Assembly: GCA_016291405.1 (NCBI GenBank)
Contig: JAEEXG010000008.1
Span: 1 to 64,000 of the forward strand
Direction of reading: 5' to 3'
DNA from: Lachnospiraceae bacterium
Lineage (GTDB): Bacteria; Bacillota; Clostridia; Lachnospirales; Lachnospiraceae
Length of the DNA: 64,000 bases
Shown: positions 35,797-46,315 of the stretch, one piece after another
Numbering within the stretch: position 1 is the first letter of the stretch
How the letters are laid out: each line of letters begins with the position of its first letter
Made by a program: the position numbers and the translations under genes
The notes under the pieces: generated by a model
What the model was told of the DNA's origin: nothing
Databases searched by the model: none
Seen by the model: the letters and a program-made list of their open reading frames with translations, nothing else

Positions 35797-35969
35797 AGGT
35801 GAACGAATGATTATTAGATAGTTTGATTTAGGTGAACACGTTGATTAAGGCTACGTAGGTAGCAGTTTTGTGTACGCTTAAATTGGATTATCATGCATTC
35901 TTAGCCTGTTTAATAATATAGGTTTATTTTTGTGTGAGTCTATTTTGCGTATGCAGAATGGACTTTTTT
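35797..35969 (+). promoter_or_regulatory. ABC-F leader with two mini-ORFs and an attenuator terminator
   Basis: The ~220-nt leader holds two AGGTGA ribosome-binding-like sites (35797-35802, 35830-35835). Each is followed by a tiny ORF: ATGATTATTAGATAG (35807-35821, MIIR) and TTGATTAAGGCTACGTAG (35841-35858, five codons). At the end, AGTCTATTTTGC/GCAGAATGGACT (35937-35964, GTAT loop) plus TTTTTTG forms an intrinsic terminator immediately before the gene's ribosome binding site. This is the layout of ribosome-mediated attenuation in resistance ABC-F genes; the mechanism is inferred. Confidence 0.65.
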
Positions 35970-35987
35970 GTTTTAGAGGGAGGAAAT

Positions 35988-37448
35988 ATGGCACAAAAAT
36001 TACTTATAAAAGCTGAGAATATAGTTCACTCATACGGTGAGCAAACAGTGCTTGATTTTGACAAGTTTTACCTTTATGAAGGTGAGAAGGTGGGCCTGGT
36101 AGGCGTAAACGGTGCAGGGAAAAGCACGCTCCTAAAGATACTATCAGGTGAATTAAAGGCAACCGAAGGAACTGTTTTCAGAGATTGTAATCCCGTCTAC
36201 TTTGAGCAATTTGCTTCAGATGAATCCTACTATGAAACAGACTACAGTGAAGCGGGAAAGATGGGTGTAAGTGAACAGATATGGCAAGAAAACGTAAGCG
36301 GTGGAGAAGATACGAGAATCAGACTGGCAAAACTCTTTTCAAATAACCAGGCGGTTGCTTTCCTTGATGAGCCTACGTCAAATCTCGATTTTGAAGGCGT
36401 AAATATGTTAAAGAAGCGCCTCAAAGAAATTGATACGATGGTGATTATTTGCCACGACAGAGCAGTACTTAACGAGCTTTGCAACAGGATTGTGGATCTT
36501 TCCTTTGGTAAGCTTCAAAGTTACTCGGGAAATTATGATGAGTATGTGGCTCAGAAAGAAGAACAGTTTAAAACAAAGCAAAACGAGTATGAAAACTATC
36601 AGGCTGAGAAGAAGCGCCTGCAGGGAGTTTATCTTGAAAAGAAAATAAAGGCGGTAAAAATCGAAAAGAAACCGAAAAACATATCTGCAAGTGAAGCAAA
36701 AGTAAGAGCGTATATCGGAAATCATAAGCCTGAAGACAAAGCAAGAAATATGGAGAAAAGTGCCACTAATGTTTTAAAGCGAATAGAGCACATGGAGGTA
36801 AAAGAAAAGCCAAAGGTTGAACCTACCGCAAGACCTGATTTTAGGCTCACAAATCCCCCAAAGAATCCGATTGTTATAAGAGGAGAACATGTTTCTTTTT
36901 CTTATGGTGATAAGGTCATATTTGAAGATGCCGACTTCATGATCAAGAACGGGAGTAAAGTGGCGATTCTTGGCGGAAACGGAGCGGGAAAGACAACGCT
37001 TTTGGAAATGATAAATAAGCGGGAAGAAATCTACGTCGTGCCGGGAGCAAAGATTGGCTATGCCAAGCAAAACATGTCTCAGATTGATTTAAACAAGACT
37101 GTTTTAGAAAATGTAAGGAGAGTAAGCATCCAAAGTGAGAGCCTTTCAAGAATCATTTTGGCGAGGCTCCTGCTTTCAGAAAGAGACATAAATAAAATGG
37201 CTAAAGACCTTTCAGGCGGGGAAAGAATGAAACTTTCTTTTGCAATGTTGTTTGTTTCGGATGTAAATCTCCTTATCTTGGATGAGCCCACAAACTACCT
37301 GGACATTCCTTCGGTGGAGGCACTTGAAAAGCTACTCATGGAATATGAAGGGACCCTAGTGTTTACATCTCATGACAAAACCTTTGTTGAAAGAATAGCG
37401 ACTGAAAAGCTCATCATAAAAGATAGAAAGCTTAAAAAAGCAGAGTAG
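35988..37448 (+). CDS. ABC-F ATPase, antibiotic-resistance type (Vga/Lsa/CplR-like)
   Basis: 486 residues from the ATG at 35988, after GAGGGAGG; the track start lies in the attenuator. It is a soluble protein with two ABC domains (GVNGAGKST and GGNGAGKTT Walker A motifs, signatures VSGGEDTR and LSGGERMK, Walker B FLDEPTSNLD and ILDEPTNYLD) joined by a charged helical linker at about residues 190-270. No membrane domain. ABC-F proteins bind the ribosomal E site, and this subgroup commonly displaces 50S-targeting drugs. A housekeeping role cannot be excluded, but the attenuated leader argues for inducible protection. Confidence 0.82.
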   Translation: MAQKLLIKAENIVHSYGEQTVLDFDKFYLYEGEKVGLVGVNGAGKSTLLKILSGELKATEGTVFRDCNPVYFEQFASDESYYETDYSEAGKMGVSEQIWQENVSGGEDTRIRLAKLFSNNQAVAFLDEPTSNLDFEGVNMLKKRLKEIDTMVIICHDRAVLNELCNRIVDLSFGKLQSYSGNYDEYVAQKEEQFKTKQNEYENYQAEKKRLQGVYLEKKIKAVKIEKKPKNISASEAKVRAYIGNHKPEDKARNMEKSATNVLKRIEHMEVKEKPKVEPTARPDFRLTNPPKNPIVIRGEHVSFSYGDKVIFEDADFMIKNGSKVAILGGNGAGKTTLLEMINKREEIYVVPGAKIGYAKQNMSQIDLNKTVLENVRRVSIQSESLSRIILARLLLSERDINKMAKDLSGGERMKLSFAMLFVSDVNLLILDEPTNYLDIPSVEALEKLLMEYEGTLVFTSHDKTFVERIATEKLIIKDRKLKKAE

Positions 37449-38320: not shown

Positions 38321-39322
38321 ATGCAGATAAGAAAGGCAAAGCCGGAAGACTTAGATTCCATATTGGAAATATATAAAATTGCCAGAGAGTTTATGATTAA
38401 CTCCGGAAATCCGAACCAATGGCGAAAAGAAAAGCCTGCGAAAGAGCAGATTGAGGCAGATATAAAGAACGGGATTTGTAATGTAATTTACGAAGGAGAT
38501 GAGATCCACGGAGTGTTTGCTTTGTGCGAAGGAATCGACCCAACGTATTCATACATAGAAAACGGTGCATGGCTAAACGATGAAAAGTACGTAACCATTC
38601 ACAGAATCGCAAGTGACGGTAAAGCTCACGGCATCTTCGAAGCTGCAATGAATAAGTGCAAAGAATACGCCGATAACATAAGAATCGACACTCATGAAGA
38701 TAACAAAGTCATGCAGGGTGCTTTAAAGAAATTCGGATTTAAGCGTTGCGGAATTATATATCTTTCAAACGGTGAACCAAGAATTGCATTTCAGTGGAAG
38801 AAGGAAGTAAGAATAGAGACTAAAGACTTAGTCCTTAAGAAGGCTGAGTTTGATGACTGGAAGCCGCTTCTTAGAAACATTTGGAGTCATGAGGAATCGG
38901 CAAAGTATATGCTTTGGAAGGTTACAAAGACACAAGAAGAAGCAAAGGCGCGAATAATTCGAACTCTTGAGTTTGAGGAAAAAGAAAAGTATGCGCTGAT
39001 TATTTATAAAAAGCCTGAGATGGAAGCAATCGGGTTTGCGGCAATGAGAGAGTGTGAGCCCGGTGTTTTTGAAGAGATGGGGGTAGCCTTTGGGCCTGAC
39101 TTTGTGCATAAGGGATACGGAAAGCAGGTTTTGACTGCCATGTGCGAGGAAGCAAAGAAAGCGGGGGCAAAGGAATTTTTGGCAAGTCACAGAAAGTTAA
39201 ATGTAGCGTCAAAAGCGTTAATAGTTTCTTGTGGCTTTGAATATGACTATGAGTCGGAAGAAAAGGAAGATCCTAGAACCGGCGAAAAATACACGATAGT
39301 AAACTACAGAAAGAAACTATAG
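38321..39322 (+). CDS. Tandem GNAT-domain acetyltransferase
   Basis: 333 residues with two GNAT modules. Residues 1-155 (IRKAKPEDLDSILEIY...) are a divergent domain in which the acetyl-CoA loop is weak (SDGKAHGIFEAAMNKC). Residues 162-333 form a second domain with a clearer loop, DFVHKGYGKQVLTAMCEEAKKAG (Q/RxxGxG/A-like). GNAT enzymes transfer acetyl groups to amines; the substrate is unknown. The start follows TAGGAGG. A TSUP permease gene follows by 27 nt. Confidence 0.82.
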   Translation: MQIRKAKPEDLDSILEIYKIAREFMINSGNPNQWRKEKPAKEQIEADIKNGICNVIYEGDEIHGVFALCEGIDPTYSYIENGAWLNDEKYVTIHRIASDGKAHGIFEAAMNKCKEYADNIRIDTHEDNKVMQGALKKFGFKRCGIIYLSNGEPRIAFQWKKEVRIETKDLVLKKAEFDDWKPLLRNIWSHEESAKYMLWKVTKTQEEAKARIIRTLEFEEKEKYALIIYKKPEMEAIGFAAMRECEPGVFEEMGVAFGPDFVHKGYGKQVLTAMCEEAKKAGAKEFLASHRKLNVASKALIVSCGFEYDYESEEKEDPRTGEKYTIVNYRKKL

Positions 39323-40079: not shown

Positions 40080-40108
40080 TTGACATACAATTGTCAGTCA
40101 ATTATACT
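40080..40108 (+). promoter_or_regulatory. Consensus promoter with overlapping dyad
   Basis: TTGACA (40080-40085), exactly 17 bp, TATACT (40103-40108). The spacer has inverted repeats (TGACA-N6-TGTCA and ATTG-N5-CAAT), which may be a repressor site. Confidence 0.82.
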
Positions 40109-40140
40109 TTCGATTAAATAATTTTAAGAAAGAGGAAACT

Positions 40141-40254
40141 ATGTTAGAATTTACAATCTCTAAATCTAATATGAATGCCCCCGAACCCTGGAATAATAAT
40201 CAGGGGTTATTTGCATACGTATTTGATGAGGAAGATTTAGCGCGCCAAGCATAG
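40141..40254 (+). CDS. 37-codon ORF, candidate leader peptide or small protein
   Basis: Not in the ORF track. ATG at 40141 follows AAAGAGGA; the frame encodes MLEFTISKSNMNAPEPWNNN... ending FDEEDLARQA. It is acidic, with no signal peptide or membrane span. It sits alone behind a consensus promoter, and a terminator lies between it and the next gene. Its codons for FDEE contain TTTGATGAGG, an exact copy of the terminator's 3' arm, so the ORF may act in cis as an attenuator leader. It could also be an ordinary small protein. No family recognised. Confidence 0.7.
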   Translation: MLEFTISKSNMNAPEPWNNNQGLFAYVFDEEDLARQA

Positions 40255-40279
40255 GATTACTTAGTCTAAAAGGATTATT

Positions 40280-40320
40280 AAGCCTCATCAAACTAAATGT
40301 TTGATGAGGCTTTTGTTTTT
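40280..40320 (+). terminator. Terminator/attenuator before nucleoside phosphorylase
   Basis: AAGCCTCATCAAAC (40280-40293)/GTTTGATGAGGCTT (40299-40312), loop TAAAT, then TTTTGTTTTT. The next gene's AGGAGGG site begins about 4 bases later, leaving no room for another promoter. A copy of the 3' arm at 40222-40231 can pair with the 5' arm instead. Confidence 0.88.
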
Positions 40321-40334
40321 ATTAGGAGGGAAAA

Positions 40335-41102
40335 ATGATTATTAAGAACGAAATACCCATACTGGAATATGATGATGCTTCAAAAGAAGTTATTTCTCCA
40401 AAGCAGGATGTGGAAGAATTAAAGCTTCCAAAGAAGTGTCTTATAGCATTCTTAAGTGGATGCGTGGAAGAATATGCAAAGGCACATAACGCAACAATAG
40501 CTGAAGAAATCATTACATTCTCACATGTGGTTAAAATTTATATTTTGCATGAAGATGATGAAGATATTTGCCTTATTCAGCCAACTATCGGATCTGCGGC
40601 AGCAGTGCAGGCTTTGGATGTTTTGATTGCCTGCGGATGTGAAAAGATTATAGCCGTAGGCTCTTGCGGAGTGCTTGCGGACTTACCGGAAAACGCTTTC
40701 TTGGTACCTACAAAGGCGCTTAGAGCAGACGGAACATCTTATCATTATTTACCTGCATCAAGATATGTGGAGCTTGATGGGGATGCAATTAAGGCTATAG
40801 AGCGTTGCTTTACAAAGCACGATTTACCTTTTGTCACCACCACCACTTGGACAACGGACGGCTTTTACAGAGAGACAAAGGATATGGTTAAGTACCGTTT
40901 GGAAGAGGGCTGTGAGGTAGTGGAAATGGAATGCGCCGGAATGGCGGCATGTGCTAAAAAGCGCGGAGCTAAGTTCGGACAGTTTCTTTTTACAGCCGAT
41001 TCTTTGGCAAACGTGCATGAGTACGATACCAGGGATTGGGGCTTAGCGTCCCACGAAAAGGCGCTGCTTCTTGGACTTGAAGTATTAAGAGAGTTTAACT
41101 AG
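40335..41102 (+). CDS. Nucleoside phosphorylase (PNP/UDP family)
   Basis: 255 residues. The fold's motifs are present: TIGSAAAVQALDVLIACGCEKIIAVGSCGVL (phosphate and ribose binding) and VVEMECAGMAACAKKRG (the MECA glutamate contacting ribose). It should cleave a purine or uridine nucleoside to base plus ribose-1-phosphate; the base preference is not clear. It is the first full gene after the attenuator. A GNAT-methyltransferase fusion starts 9 nt downstream, so the three genes to 43264 are probably one operon. Confidence 0.85.
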   Translation: MIIKNEIPILEYDDASKEVISPKQDVEELKLPKKCLIAFLSGCVEEYAKAHNATIAEEIITFSHVVKIYILHEDDEDICLIQPTIGSAAAVQALDVLIACGCEKIIAVGSCGVLADLPENAFLVPTKALRADGTSYHYLPASRYVELDGDAIKAIERCFTKHDLPFVTTTTWTTDGFYRETKDMVKYRLEEGCEVVEMECAGMAACAKKRGAKFGQFLFTADSLANVHEYDTRDWGLASHEKALLLGLEVLREFN

Positions 41103-41111
41103 GAGGGAAAA

Positions 41112-42392
41112 ATGGAGTTAATAAGAGTACAGGATTCTGACACAAAGAAAGCCTATGAAATGTATATGACATTTGCGAAAGACGAAAACGGATACATCAA
41201 TCCTGTGTACGGCTATGAGTACGATGAATTTCTTAAATGGATAGATAAAAAGAGAGACTGGAGCGTAGGAAAAAATCTTCCGGAAGGTTTTGTGCCGGAT
41301 ACCACTTACATTTTGGAAGATGATGGAAAGTATGTGGGAGCCTTTAACTTAAGGCATCACTTAAACGACTTTTTAAGAGAGGGCCCGGGGCATATAGGAT
41401 ACGGCATTTCCAAAGAATATCGAGGGAAGGGCTATGCCACAAAGGGACTTTTGCTTACCCTAGAAAAGGCCAAAGAACACGGAATCTATGAGGCATATTT
41501 ATCCGTTAACAAGGATAACCCGGCAAGTCTAAAGGTGCAAAAAAAGTGCGGAGCCTACATTCATCATGAAAACGACAAGGAGTACTTTACAAGAATTAAC
41601 CTTGAAACAAAAAGGGAAGAAATAGTTGAAAACTATTATAAAGCCTATGATGAAGACAGCAGACTTCAAAGAAGCTGTCACGGCAGGCTTGAATACGCCA
41701 CCACAATGCACTACATCCATAAGTACGCTAAGGAAGGTGCCAAGATTTTGGAAGTTGGCGCGGGAACAGGAAGATACAGCGTGGCACTTGCAAAGGAAGG
41801 CTTTGACGTAACTGCGGTGGAACTTACAAGTGCAAACCTTGAAGTTTTAAAGAAAAACGGAGAGGGCGTAAAGACACTTAAGGCCCTTAAAGGGGACGCC
41901 ACAAACCTTAAAGACATTGAGGATGGCACCTTTGATGTAACGGTGGTGCTAGGCCCCTTCTATCATTTATATGAAAGAAAAGACCTTGATAAGGCCATAA
42001 AAGAAGCCTTGAGAGTCACCAAGAAAGATGGAATTGTGATGTTTGCATACATTTCAGTTTATGCAATTATGTACATGAACTACTTTCAGGGAAACTGGGC
42101 TTTCGGAGAGGAAGAAAACTTTACGAAAGACTATAAGGTTAAGCACTATAAAGAGCAGGTTTTCACAGGCTTTGACGTAGAAGAGTTTTCTCATCTGTTT
42201 GATGATAAGGACATTGACTATATCACAACCGTATCTACCGATCAGTGTATCGGGGCCTTGGAAGAAAGAAGTGATTTCTCTCTTCCCGATGCAGACTTTG
42301 CGGCTTTCTTTAAATGGCACCTTGCAATCTGTGAAAAGAAAGAACTTCTTGGAAGCGGCTGCCACCTATTGTATATCTGTAAGAAAAGATAG
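41112..42392 (+). CDS. GNAT acetyltransferase-SAM methyltransferase fusion
   Basis: 426 residues with two catalytic modules. Residues 1-165 are a GNAT domain with acetyl-CoA loop YRGKGYATKGLLLTLEKA. Residues 170-426 are a class I methyltransferase with motif I ILEVGAGTGRYSVALAKEG and acidic motif II VELTSANLE, plus VVLGPFYHL at the active-site side. Both modules look intact. The fusion suggests sequential acetylation and methylation of one substrate, or a regulatory pairing; neither substrate is known. AGGAGGG precedes the ATG. Confidence 0.82.
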   Translation: MELIRVQDSDTKKAYEMYMTFAKDENGYINPVYGYEYDEFLKWIDKKRDWSVGKNLPEGFVPDTTYILEDDGKYVGAFNLRHHLNDFLREGPGHIGYGISKEYRGKGYATKGLLLTLEKAKEHGIYEAYLSVNKDNPASLKVQKKCGAYIHHENDKEYFTRINLETKREEIVENYYKAYDEDSRLQRSCHGRLEYATTMHYIHKYAKEGAKILEVGAGTGRYSVALAKEGFDVTAVELTSANLEVLKKNGEGVKTLKALKGDATNLKDIEDGTFDVTVVLGPFYHLYERKDLDKAIKEALRVTKKDGIVMFAYISVYAIMYMNYFQGNWAFGEEENFTKDYKVKHYKEQVFTGFDVEEFSHLFDDKDIDYITTVSTDQCIGALEERSDFSLPDADFAAFFKWHLAICEKKELLGSGCHLLYICKKR

Positions 42393-42424
42393 ATACTGTA
42401 TTTATAAAAATACGGAGAAAGAAA

Positions 42425-43264
42425 ATGTCTAAAACCATTGAAGAAATTGCTCTTGACTGGGAAGAAAAGTATAGATACGGTTCCGTTGAAAAAAGAAAGA
42501 TAAGAGCCTCGCTTTGGAAGCCCTATTACTCGTTAGTTTATGAGGCGCAAAGAAACGCAAAGTACAAAGCCCCCGATAAACCCGATGAGCTCATACAAAA
42601 GCTATCGGATATAGGCGCAATAACCAAAGACTCTAAAGTCCTTGATATAGGAGCAGGCCTTGGGGGCCACACCTTTCAGATTGCTAAAATAGCAAAAGAA
42701 GTGGTTTCTTTGGACACTAACGAAGTCGCTCTTTCTATATTAAATAAAAGGGCAAAAGAAAACGGTGTTAAAAACGTGACCACAATCAACACTTCATGGG
42801 AAGACTATCAGGCGACAGATAAGTATGACATGGTGTTTTCTTCCATGTGCCCTGCTATCTGCAATATAGAAGAAATAAAGAGAATGGAATCTTTATCAAA
42901 GGGCTATTGCGTGCTTATTACGGTCATGGCAGGGTCTTATGATAAGCACAGAAAGAAAATGATGGGCGAGCTTAACTTAAAGCCCGAAGGCATGATCACG
43001 GACTTTGATACCTACAAGGAAGTGCTTTTAGCTATGGGGCGGGATGTAAAGGAAGCTACCAAAACCACAAAGCATGAATATAAGACTTATCTTGAAGATT
43101 TGCTTGATACAATGCCCACCTATTTTAAGATTTTTGGCATAGATGAGGAAAAATCGGTTTCTTTTATCAAAGAATACTTTAATAAAAATCAAGAAGACGG
43201 ACATTTAAATGATGAAACTTTAATGAATATAGGTATGCTTTATTGGAAACCGAGTAAAAACTGA
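42425..43264 (+). CDS. Class I SAM-dependent methyltransferase
   Basis: 279 residues with motif I VLDIGAGLGGHTFQIAKIAK, acidic motif II SLDTNEVAL and motif IV-like MVFSSMCPAICN. The N-terminus (EEIALDWEEKYRYGSVEKRKIRASLW) and the SMCPA segment recall corrinoid- or coproporphyrin-associated methyltransferase-like families, but the substrate is unknown. It follows the fusion gene by 32 nt with GGAGAAAG before the ATG. Probably the last gene of the operon that begins at 40080. Confidence 0.8.
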   Translation: MSKTIEEIALDWEEKYRYGSVEKRKIRASLWKPYYSLVYEAQRNAKYKAPDKPDELIQKLSDIGAITKDSKVLDIGAGLGGHTFQIAKIAKEVVSLDTNEVALSILNKRAKENGVKNVTTINTSWEDYQATDKYDMVFSSMCPAICNIEEIKRMESLSKGYCVLITVMAGSYDKHRKKMMGELNLKPEGMITDFDTYKEVLLAMGRDVKEATKTTKHEYKTYLEDLLDTMPTYFKIFGIDEEKSVSFIKEYFNKNQEDGHLNDETLMNIGMLYWKPSKN

Positions 43265-43456: not shown

Positions 43457-43852
43457 ATGGCATGTTTTCTTGTATCGGCAGCCGAAGCTGCTGTAGTTAC
43501 AGCGGTTGAAAAGAAAGAAGCTAAGAGAGAAATGCTTCATGCATCAGAGCATGGTCACGTAGAAGAGGTTAAGGTTCCTTTTTCAAGAAAGCTTAAATGG
43601 CTTAAGAGCTTACTTCTTGGCGGAGCTGTTTTACTTATGTTTGAGCACGTTTGGCACGGAGAGGTAGTTGCATGGTTTCCTTTCCTTACAGCAATGTCTA
43701 ATGCAGAAGATGCAGCTGAAATGTTTAAGGAAATGGGAACAGTCGGCGTTAGCATGGCACTTTTAATCACAGTAGTTTGGGGCGTTATGTGCAAAGTTGC
43801 CGATGCTATTGTTAAAAGACCTGTATCAGAGGCTCAGAAAAACGAAGCATAA
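43457..43852 (+). CDS. Conserved small membrane protein A
   Basis: 131 residues. The first ~40 are polar, beginning MACFLVSAAEAAVVTAVEKKEAK. Two membrane helices follow (about 48-65 and 95-115), separated by the aromatic segment FEHVWHGEVVAWFPFLTAMSNAEDAAEM. I recall similar FEHVWHGEV proteins in other gut Clostridia, always uncharacterised. TTGGAGG precedes the ATG. It is paired with the next gene 14 nt downstream. Confidence 0.75.
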   Translation: MACFLVSAAEAAVVTAVEKKEAKREMLHASEHGHVEEVKVPFSRKLKWLKSLLLGGAVLLMFEHVWHGEVVAWFPFLTAMSNAEDAAEMFKEMGTVGVSMALLITVVWGVMCKVADAIVKRPVSEAQKNEA

Positions 43853-43866
43853 TCGGGGGAATAAAA

Positions 43867-44178
43867 ATGACATTACTTATTACAGTTTTTGCAGCTGTTA
43901 TAGCTACTGTTAAATGGTATACACGTAAGGATGACTCAATGAAGCTCGGTATTCTTTTGTTTATGTACTGGGGCGCATCTTTAATGTGGTTTGTGGATGC
44001 AATCTTTGAATATGTCGAAAGCGGCGCAGCTTACTTTACACCCGCTATCGAGGATGTTTTAAACGATGCATTCTTAGGCCTTTGCGTTGTAGCATTAGGT
44101 TTAATTATCTGGGTGGTACGTTTGCTTATTACAGATCCCAAGGGTTCTGTTCGTGCAGCACTTACAAAGAAAAACTAA
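43867..44178 (+). CDS. Conserved small membrane protein B
   Basis: 103 residues with three hydrophobic stretches (1-15, 28-48, 73-92). The middle, LMYWGASLMWFVDAIFEYVESGAAYFT, contains acidic residues next to a membrane span. The C-terminus is basic (DPKGSVRAALTKKN). It always appears to follow protein A in the layouts I recall. The two probably form one membrane complex. Function unknown. A terminator follows. Confidence 0.72.
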   Translation: MTLLITVFAAVIATVKWYTRKDDSMKLGILLFMYWGASLMWFVDAIFEYVESGAAYFTPAIEDVLNDAFLGLCVVALGLIIWVVRLLITDPKGSVRAALTKKN

Positions 44179-45562: not shown

Positions 45563-45565
45563 ATG

Positions 45566-45625
45566 TTGACACGGTGTCAGTTTTTTGATATATTTCTTTT
45601 TGTTAAATTGACACGGTGTCAGTTT
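45566..45625 (+). promoter_or_regulatory. TetR promoter with two identical palindromic operators
   Basis: TTGACACGGTGTCAGTTT occurs at 45566-45583 and, identically, at 45608-45625, 42 bp apart. Each copy contains the perfect palindrome TGACACGGTGTCA. The first supplies the -35 (TTGACA 45566-45571); a 17-bp spacer leads to TATATT (45589-45594). The second copy lies just after the expected start site. Occupancy of both would block initiation and escape. Confidence 0.88.
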
Positions 45626-45646
45626 ACGCGTGAAGAGGAGAATAAA

Positions 45647-46315
45647 ATGCCAAAATGCTCGTGTGAAGAGACTAAGAAAAAGCGTGAAGAAATAGTTGAC
45701 GCTTGCTCAAAACTTTATGAGACCATGGCCTATAAGGATATCACCATTAAAGAAATAGGCCGTTTTACTTCATTTACAAGAACATCCATCTATAATTACT
45801 TTGCCACAAAGGAAGAGATTTTCTTGGAGCTTTTGATGAGAGACTTTAGATCATGGATTGAAGATCTTGACTCTATTCCTGCCAAGGGAGAGCTTTTAAC
45901 CTTGGATGAAGCGGCCGACGGTTTGGCCGGTTCTTTGGCAAGAAGAGTAAGAATGTTAGGGCTTTTAAGTATGAGCCTTGCAGACATGCAGGATAATTGC
46001 AGGATGGATAACTTAATAGAGTTTAAGAAGGTTTATAACAGTACAGGCCAAGCCATTCGAAGAGTGTTGGAAAGAGTGACTCCGGAAATTACAGAAGAAG
46101 ACAAGCAGGCCTTTGTGTGCGCTTTTTATCCATTTATATACGGGCTTTACCCTTATACAGCCATCAACAAAAAACAGGAAGAAGCTGAACTAAAGACGGG
46201 AGTTCCCTGTTGCTGCGTGTGCCATAAAATGTACGACGCCGCAAGGCCCTGTATAAAGATGCTTTTGGAAGCTGTTATTTGCGGATGCAACGGAAAGAAT
46301 TTTCAAAAGAAATAA
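45647..46315 (+). CDS. TetR-family repressor, cysteine-rich
   Basis: 222 residues from the ATG at 45647 after AGAGGAG; the track's start runs through the operators. The N-terminal helix-turn-helix is clear (YKDITIKEIGRFTSFTRTSIYNYFATKEEIFLELL). Cysteines cluster at both ends: CSC at residues 4-6, and VPCCCVCHKM, RPCIKM and ICGCNGK near the C-terminus. These could sense thiols, metals or redox state (inference). It is the first gene of an operon with a polar amino-acid ABC importer 14 nt downstream, which it probably controls together with itself. Confidence 0.88.
   Translation: MPKCSCEETKKKREEIVDACSKLYETMAYKDITIKEIGRFTSFTRTSIYNYFATKEEIFLELLMRDFRSWIEDLDSIPAKGELLTLDEAADGLAGSLARRVRMLGLLSMSLADMQDNCRMDNLIEFKKVYNSTGQAIRRVLERVTPEITEEDKQAFVCAFYPFIYGLYPYTAINKKQEEAELKTGVPCCCVCHKMYDAARPCIKMLLEAVICGCNGKNFQKK

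Follow-up and report, generated by a model that had tools for sequence, protein, structure and literature searches.

The window analysed here, a 64,000-nt stretch of contig JAEEXG010000008.1 (Lachnospiraceae bacterium, assembly GCA_016291405.1), carries an operon of three enzyme genes, all on the plus strand; the host is a rumen bacterium. The first gene (40335–41102) encodes an enzyme of the PNP/UDP superfamily, probably a nucleosidase, as judged from Pfam (PNP_UDP_1, 103 bits, above the gathering cut-off), an alignment of 30 homologues and a PDB profile search. The second gene (41112–42392) encodes a GNAT domain (aa 1–160) fused to a class I SAM methyltransferase (aa 166–426), and the third (42425–43264) encodes MT2, a second class I SAM methyltransferase found in this lineage only. 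The close packing reported in the first-pass annotation was verified: the ORFs, their coordinates and the intergenic gaps of 9 and 32 nt are correct, and the Shine-Dalgarno sites of the three ORFs are good. In the fusion protein, Pfam detects Acetyltransf_1 (47 bits at aa 60–147; cut-off 20.7) and Methyltransf_11 (65 bits at aa 213–311) in a single chain; full-length fusions are also present in records L061–L064, L120 and L121. The fusion has both the gathering score and the acetyl-CoA motif R/QxxGxG/A of the GNAT superfamily; gathering score and motif I likewise place the methyltransferase in class I. The GNAT motif RGKGYA and the methyltransferase motif I (VGAGTG/IGAGTG) are intact in all seven fusions, so the earlier description of complete GNAT and SAM motifs in one chain holds. 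None of the three proteins reaches the cut-off of any listed curated NCBIfam model or of a curated resistance model, and no NCBIfam resistance acetyltransferase model scores above its cut-off for the fusion.

The first enzyme had been called a nucleoside phosphorylase, and this part of the earlier description is doubtful. In DeoD, the Arg of the RVGSCG motif binds phosphate; among the 30 aligned homologues the corresponding position is mostly Ala, Ser or Thr, while the Glu-Met-Glu and Asp motifs are retained. Since the phosphate-binding Arg is missing, the enzyme is likely to be a nucleosidase rather than a phosphorylase. In PDB profile comparison its neighbours are uridine phosphorylase-like proteins, archaeal MTA phosphorylase and AMP nucleosidase. 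Three specific assignments lack support: DeoD-type purine nucleoside phosphorylase (29 bits against an NCBIfam cut-off of 232, with the RVGSCG Arg missing), AMP nucleosidase (57 bits against 264, even though this enzyme and the uridine phosphorylase-like proteins are nearest by profile) and MTA/SAH nucleosidase (21 bits against 169).

MT2 is assigned by Methyltransf_31 (51 bits, above the Pfam gathering cut-off). Its AlphaFold2 model has a methyltransferase fold with good confidence (pLDDT 82.5), and the solved structures nearest to the model are mostly small-molecule methyltransferases. No close relatives of MT2 were found outside the sister species; the DxGxGxG motif is retained even in proteins 19–25% identical. 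Distant kin of MT2 lie beside Nik/Dpp-type ABC transporter genes and FmdE, yet they share only 19–25% identity, and a nickel-linked role was therefore not adopted. An assignment to an anti-phage system was also dropped, the search having returned generic methyltransferase matches only.

The complete three-gene operon is present only in this genome and in one sister species (a Lachnospiraceae MAG, G016, record RUI583), with 95% identity at the DNA level. The full fusion occurs elsewhere in three Butyrivibrio records (L062, L063 and L064) and in genomes G194 and G075, at 62–68% identity; comparison of neighbourhoods revealed no adjoining PNP or MT2 gene in any of the five further Lachnospiraceae fusion records. 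A fixed unit of three genes is thus not supported, since five records have the fusion on its own and MT2 has close relatives in the sister species only. The first-pass annotation had also stated that a fusion always found alone, or a degenerate catalytic motif, would speak against its reading: the fusion is usually alone, and no catalytic motif is degenerate. In many Lachnospiraceae the two halves of the fusion are separate genes. A single origin of the fusion was not rejected (p-AU 0.074), and up to three origins are possible; the structure model of the fusion (mean pLDDT 57) was too poor for use. The three-gene operon is young and its parts are older. On the 3′ side of the operon lies a pair of small membrane-protein genes (43457–44178), the first without a Pfam match, and an equivalent pair adjoins the fusion gene of G194 (L120, 7169–7874).

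The region ahead of the first gene (40080–40319) very probably has the architecture of a ribosome-mediated attenuator. A sigma-70 promoter (TTGACA-17-TATACT, 40080–40108, plus strand, 11 of 12 consensus bases, spacer AATTGTCAGTCAATT) is followed by a leader ORF of 37 aa (MLEFTISKSNMNAPEPWNNNQGLFAYVFDEEDLARQA, 40141–40254, plus strand) with an AGAGG Shine-Dalgarno sequence. Inside the ORF are hairpin A (CCCTG/CAGGG, 40186–40205), a possible pause hairpin with one pair showing a compensatory change, and the antiterminator arm TTTGATGAGG (40222–40231); Asn codons lie at 40192–40200 and further upstream. The hairpin A motif was not found in viral contigs. The arm repeats the sequence of the terminator 3′ strand and is able to pair with the 5′ strand at 40283–40292 (duplex −14.5 kcal/mol). 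The intrinsic terminator itself (40280–40319; 40280–40312 in the folding analysis) consists of a 14-bp stem and a U-run, and its fold z-score of −4.7 confirms the attenuator noticed in the first-pass annotation; in the sister species the terminator loop is changed and the stem unbroken. Antiterminator and terminator are mutually exclusive, and both helices covary. Ahead of the first gene, promoter, short ORF with a ribosome-binding site and intrinsic terminator follow one another in the order seen in 11 other leaders.

The promoter is the sole match within three mismatches across its own genome. Relatives have promoter sites with a similar spacer ahead of their fusion, GNAT and PNP genes (L064, L104, L146, L062 and L063). 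The conserved spacer TTGACATACAATTGTCAGTCAATTATA, at 40080–40106 of the window, was also seen at position 7858 of L064 and on the reverse strand of L104 (from 2280) and L146 (from 2358); at the PNP gene of L146 (genome G344) the promoter is present and the attenuator absent. Besides the attenuator, a regulatory protein may act here, with its operator in the spacer. Further downstream in the window, a TetR-type gene probably starts at 45648 and not at 45563 (window 45563–45647), and the two TTGACACGGTGTCAGTTT repeats just 5′ of its start are likely its own operator; a by-eye comparison of the TTGACACGGTGTCAGT repeats before this gene with the operon promoter led us to regard them as a different motif. 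Near upstream of the operon are genes for an ABC-F ribosomal-protection-like protein (35934–37448) and a GNAT protein extended by an additional N-terminal region (38321–39322), neither of which has this attenuator.

A sequence search with the leader peptide in 397 genomes of the family and in plasmids returned the window itself only; the attenuator family was recognised solely through comparison of upstream DNA and covariance models. Upstream-DNA comparison revealed a like architecture before a GNAT gene of G247, the fusion genes of G194 and G075, an MT gene of G090 and a GNAT gene of G017 that is cut by the contig end, so that its full-length or fused form is not visible. The Butyrivibrio fusions and the MT-PNP pair of G004 keep the promoter and the terminator and have no such leader ORF. 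A first covariance model, run on 299 genomes, produced five new sites at E < 1e-4, located before a kinase::GNAT fusion gene (G330), MT_X-GNAT pairs (G332 and G017), a GNAT-PNP pair (G317) and asnS (G194). Matches in G146, G196 and G327 were discarded as T-box-like leaders before genes of Trp-transporter type, and matches in G282 and G035 because they were terminators only. The site in G330 (L206, G330:C10:197745-197889) precedes a gene for a P-loop kinase fused to GNAT, with a further GNAT gene behind it, and its leader contains YYY and NNN. A model built from 12 leaders produced nine matches outside its training set, with E values of at most 0.11. Eight of them lie immediately upstream of module genes and the ninth upstream of an operon containing MT. 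A chance probability calculated for the matches of this model was set aside, as training sequences made up half of the matches. The nine are not independent events, since they come from about five lineages, and in the weakest of them, before 40%-identical MT genes, the leader sequences differ. Distant MT genes in L081, L082 and L085 (39–40% identity) have a leader ORF and terminator of their own, with another sequence and a similar layout (TGATGG vs CCATCA).

Both alternative helices are supported by covariation. In the terminator, 98% of cells are paired and 13 are changed on both sides, a level reached in none of 500 shuffles; for the antiterminator the figures are 78%, seven and 3 of 500. 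The key compensatory exchange is CCTCATC/GATGAGG in one genome group against CCTTATC/GATAAGG in the other. No Rfam covariance model, for the T-box or any other known RNA family, matched the attenuator, and in the literature searched, with incomplete coverage, we found no description of the family.

The leaders are rich in asparagine. Asn makes up 14.2% of residues in 11 module leaders, compared with 4.2% in long ORFs, and no other residue comes near such an excess; Lys and Ile are depleted, so that A+T content does not account for it. Of 12 leaders, eight have Asn codons 26–33 nt before the arm and 11 have them at 56–66 nt. Every one of the 11 module leaders has its stop codon 13–31 nt beyond the start of the arm, which fits coverage of the arm by a ribosome completing the ORF (the P values for these patterns ignore the relatedness of leaders). 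The exception is the asnS copy, with its stop 15 nt before the arm. This attenuator (L216, G194:C5:60490-60613, reverse strand) has a 24-aa leader, MAFTSMLNNLNNNNNNSVNNNQGI, with 11 Asn codons. A shortage of Asn-tRNA should increase asnS expression, which is why a stalled leader is taken to mean ON. The asnS locus is not favoured as the ancestral home of the leader: the attenuator was found at one of 18 asnS loci, and since the other 17 have no such leader this use looks derived. The Asn bias fits amino-acid sensing and drug sensing equally well.

Genes of the three families recur side by side in other arrangements. MT-PNP pairs were observed in three genomes: a 70%-identical PNP gene stands beside an unfused MT gene in G004 and G330, and a PNP fragment lies at a contig end in G395. 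GNAT-PNP pairs occur in at least three genomes, with an unfused GNAT in G353 and RimJ/L-like GNATs in G317 and G285; MT adjoins GNAT in G252, G276 and G328. Genes with GNAT domains make up seven of 25 PNP neighbours and seven of 30 MT neighbours, compared with three of 83 control genes located three or four places away (Fisher p = 0.001 for PNP and 0.003 for MT, with the loci partly related). We read the parts as belonging together because a common attenuator precedes them and because they are neighbours pairwise (PNP-MT, PNP-GNAT and MT-GNAT) in different genomes.

More distant relatives of the first enzyme also occur in mobile resistance regions (aad9/aadE/sat4/tet(O)), both plasmid-borne and in a phage. 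Lactobacillus plasmid p1_CACC736 carries such a gene together with aad9 and aadE; in Campylobacter pN29710-1 it lies among tet(O), sat4, aph(3′)-IIIa and aad(6), and phage phi-m46.1 has it downstream of tet(O). The PNPs of these aminoglycoside-resistance regions belong to the same protein family as that of the window; they differ in sharing only 45–50% identity with it and in that the attenuator family was not found upstream. A 1.7-kb segment with a PNP gene and a streptomycin-adenylyltransferase-like (ANT(6)-like) gene is 99.9% identical in three Lachnospiraceae genera (L077, L179 and L180). A region with PNP and aad9 is shared at 99.5% identity by one Lachnospiraceae genome and one Lactobacillus plasmid (L183 and L193), and a plasmid of Lactobacillus intestinalis (L195, 3219–7370) carries three tandem PNP paralogues with kinase, phosphotransferase and NUDIX genes, a similar pool of enzymes. 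We know of no explanation for the presence of PNP genes in mobile aminoglycoside-resistance regions.

The reading that we prefer, with a probability of roughly 0.55 on sequence comparison, is that the operon is a translation-stall-induced, mix-and-match module for modification of small molecules of the antibiotic type. The strong promoter would produce a leader RNA whose short ORF includes the arm TTTGATGAGG. In normal translation the ribosome would reach the stop just past the arm and shield it, so that the terminator forms and the operon stays OFF. A ribosome stalled upstream, e.g. at Asn codons 27–33 or 51–66 nt before the arm, would leave the arm free, the antiterminator would form and the operon would be transcribed (ON). 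Acetylation, methylation and cleavage by the enzymes may then inactivate a translation inhibitor of the nucleoside, aminoacyl-nucleoside or aminoglycoside type. In relatives, other combinations from the same pool of GNAT, MT, PNP and P-loop kinase genes stand behind the switch. The placement of PNP relatives in resistance regions and the precedent of drug-induced attenuation at bmrB also speak for this reading. Against it count the failure of all three proteins to reach a curated resistance model, the identity of only about 50% and the missing attenuator of the PNPs in mobile resistance regions, and the restriction of the three-gene set to two sister species. The idea of an inducible small-molecule modification module, put forward in the first-pass annotation, gains from the common attenuator before separate GNAT, MT, GNAT-PNP and fusion genes and from parts adjoining in several combinations; a fixed three-gene unit and phosphorolysis by the first enzyme are not supported.

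The inducer could instead be charged tRNA-Asn as such, in which case the operon would be an amino-acid or nutrient-stress response with enzymes acting on cellular metabolites and not on a drug. The Asn excess (14.2% vs 4.2%), the conserved distances of Asn codons from the arm and the leader of asnS in G194 all agree with this explanation. We nevertheless consider it unlikely: 17 of 18 asnS loci do not have this leader, the other targets include no gene of Asn metabolism, the enzymes are of modifying and not biosynthetic types, and the leaders of G332, G317 and G285 contain just 2–4 Asn codons. A narrower proposal joins the two ideas, with the attenuator reading the loss of charged tRNA-Asn specifically and the module detoxifying natural products that cause this loss, e.g. 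aminoacyl-nucleoside inhibitors of Asn-tRNA supply. Here the GNAT would acetylate the aminoacyl part, the nucleosidase would cleave the base, and a methyltransferase or kinase would block other groups. This we regard as quite improbable; if true, Gram-positive bacteria would have in this module an inducible equivalent of immunity to microcin C.

Other explanations concern the enzymes. If the first enzyme were an MTA/SAH nucleosidase clearing the SAH released by two methyltransferases, the operon would be a methylation pathway with product removal, and PNP genes beside MT genes in G004, G330 and G395 would follow, as would the weak match to the MTA/SAH nucleosidase model. That match is far below its cut-off, structures of AMP nucleosidase and of uridine phosphorylase-like proteins are better matches, and in places with no MT the PNP gene adjoins GNAT or adenylyltransferase genes, which makes this explanation very unlikely. 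There is as slight a chance that unrelated ordinary enzymes were gathered at random in an unstable region: the three-gene order is limited to two sister species and the fusion is alone in five records, while the common attenuator, the pairings recurring in different orders and the GNAT enrichment among neighbours argue otherwise. Stall-sensing leaders classically control erm genes, and weak Erm and RsmA motif matches were seen; both would suit an Erm-like target-protection operon in which one of the methyltransferases modifies rRNA. Such a function is exceedingly improbable given 24 bits with the Erm 23S rRNA methyltransferase model (NCBIfam cut-off 212) and the best fold matches of MT2 to small-molecule methyltransferases.

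In the preferred reading, of a stall-induced modification module, a common RNA switch ties otherwise scattered enzymes together. The switch offers independent guidance as to which of the many anonymous genes for GNATs, methyltransferases and nucleosidases in gut and rumen Clostridia share one drug-type response. Screens for the compound that induces it could use the leader as a reporter, and the question of the inducer is directly testable through the pattern of Asn codons and the asnS copy.

In its predicted action the switch resembles the bmrB leader of Bacillus subtilis, ahead of the bmrCD transporter genes, where readthrough occurs once antibiotics slow down the translation of a short ORF (PMC4191407). 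Both have a short translated ORF, alternative stem-loops and a terminator, and slowed translation would here likewise lead to readthrough into a drug-related gene. The bmrB leader controls a transporter, whereas the attenuator described here controls modification enzymes, has an Asn-rich leader and recurs before different genes, and no sequence relation was seen. The cysS leader uORFC-8-2 has a run of cognate codons before an aminoacyl-tRNA synthetase gene (PMC8632094), as does the asnS copy in G194; lineage, codon and sequence differ, and the main targets of our attenuator are GNAT, MT and PNP genes. For the acetyltransferases MccE and RimL we know of no attenuator of like kind. These enzymes disarm microcin C, an inhibitor of a tRNA synthetase (PMC4964394). 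Their resemblance to the module is one of role only, GNAT enzymes acting against a translation inhibitor, with RimJ/L-like GNATs present in the module pool; MccE and RimL demonstrate that GNAT enzymes are able to give protection from aminoacyl-nucleotides, which for the module is no more than an analogy.
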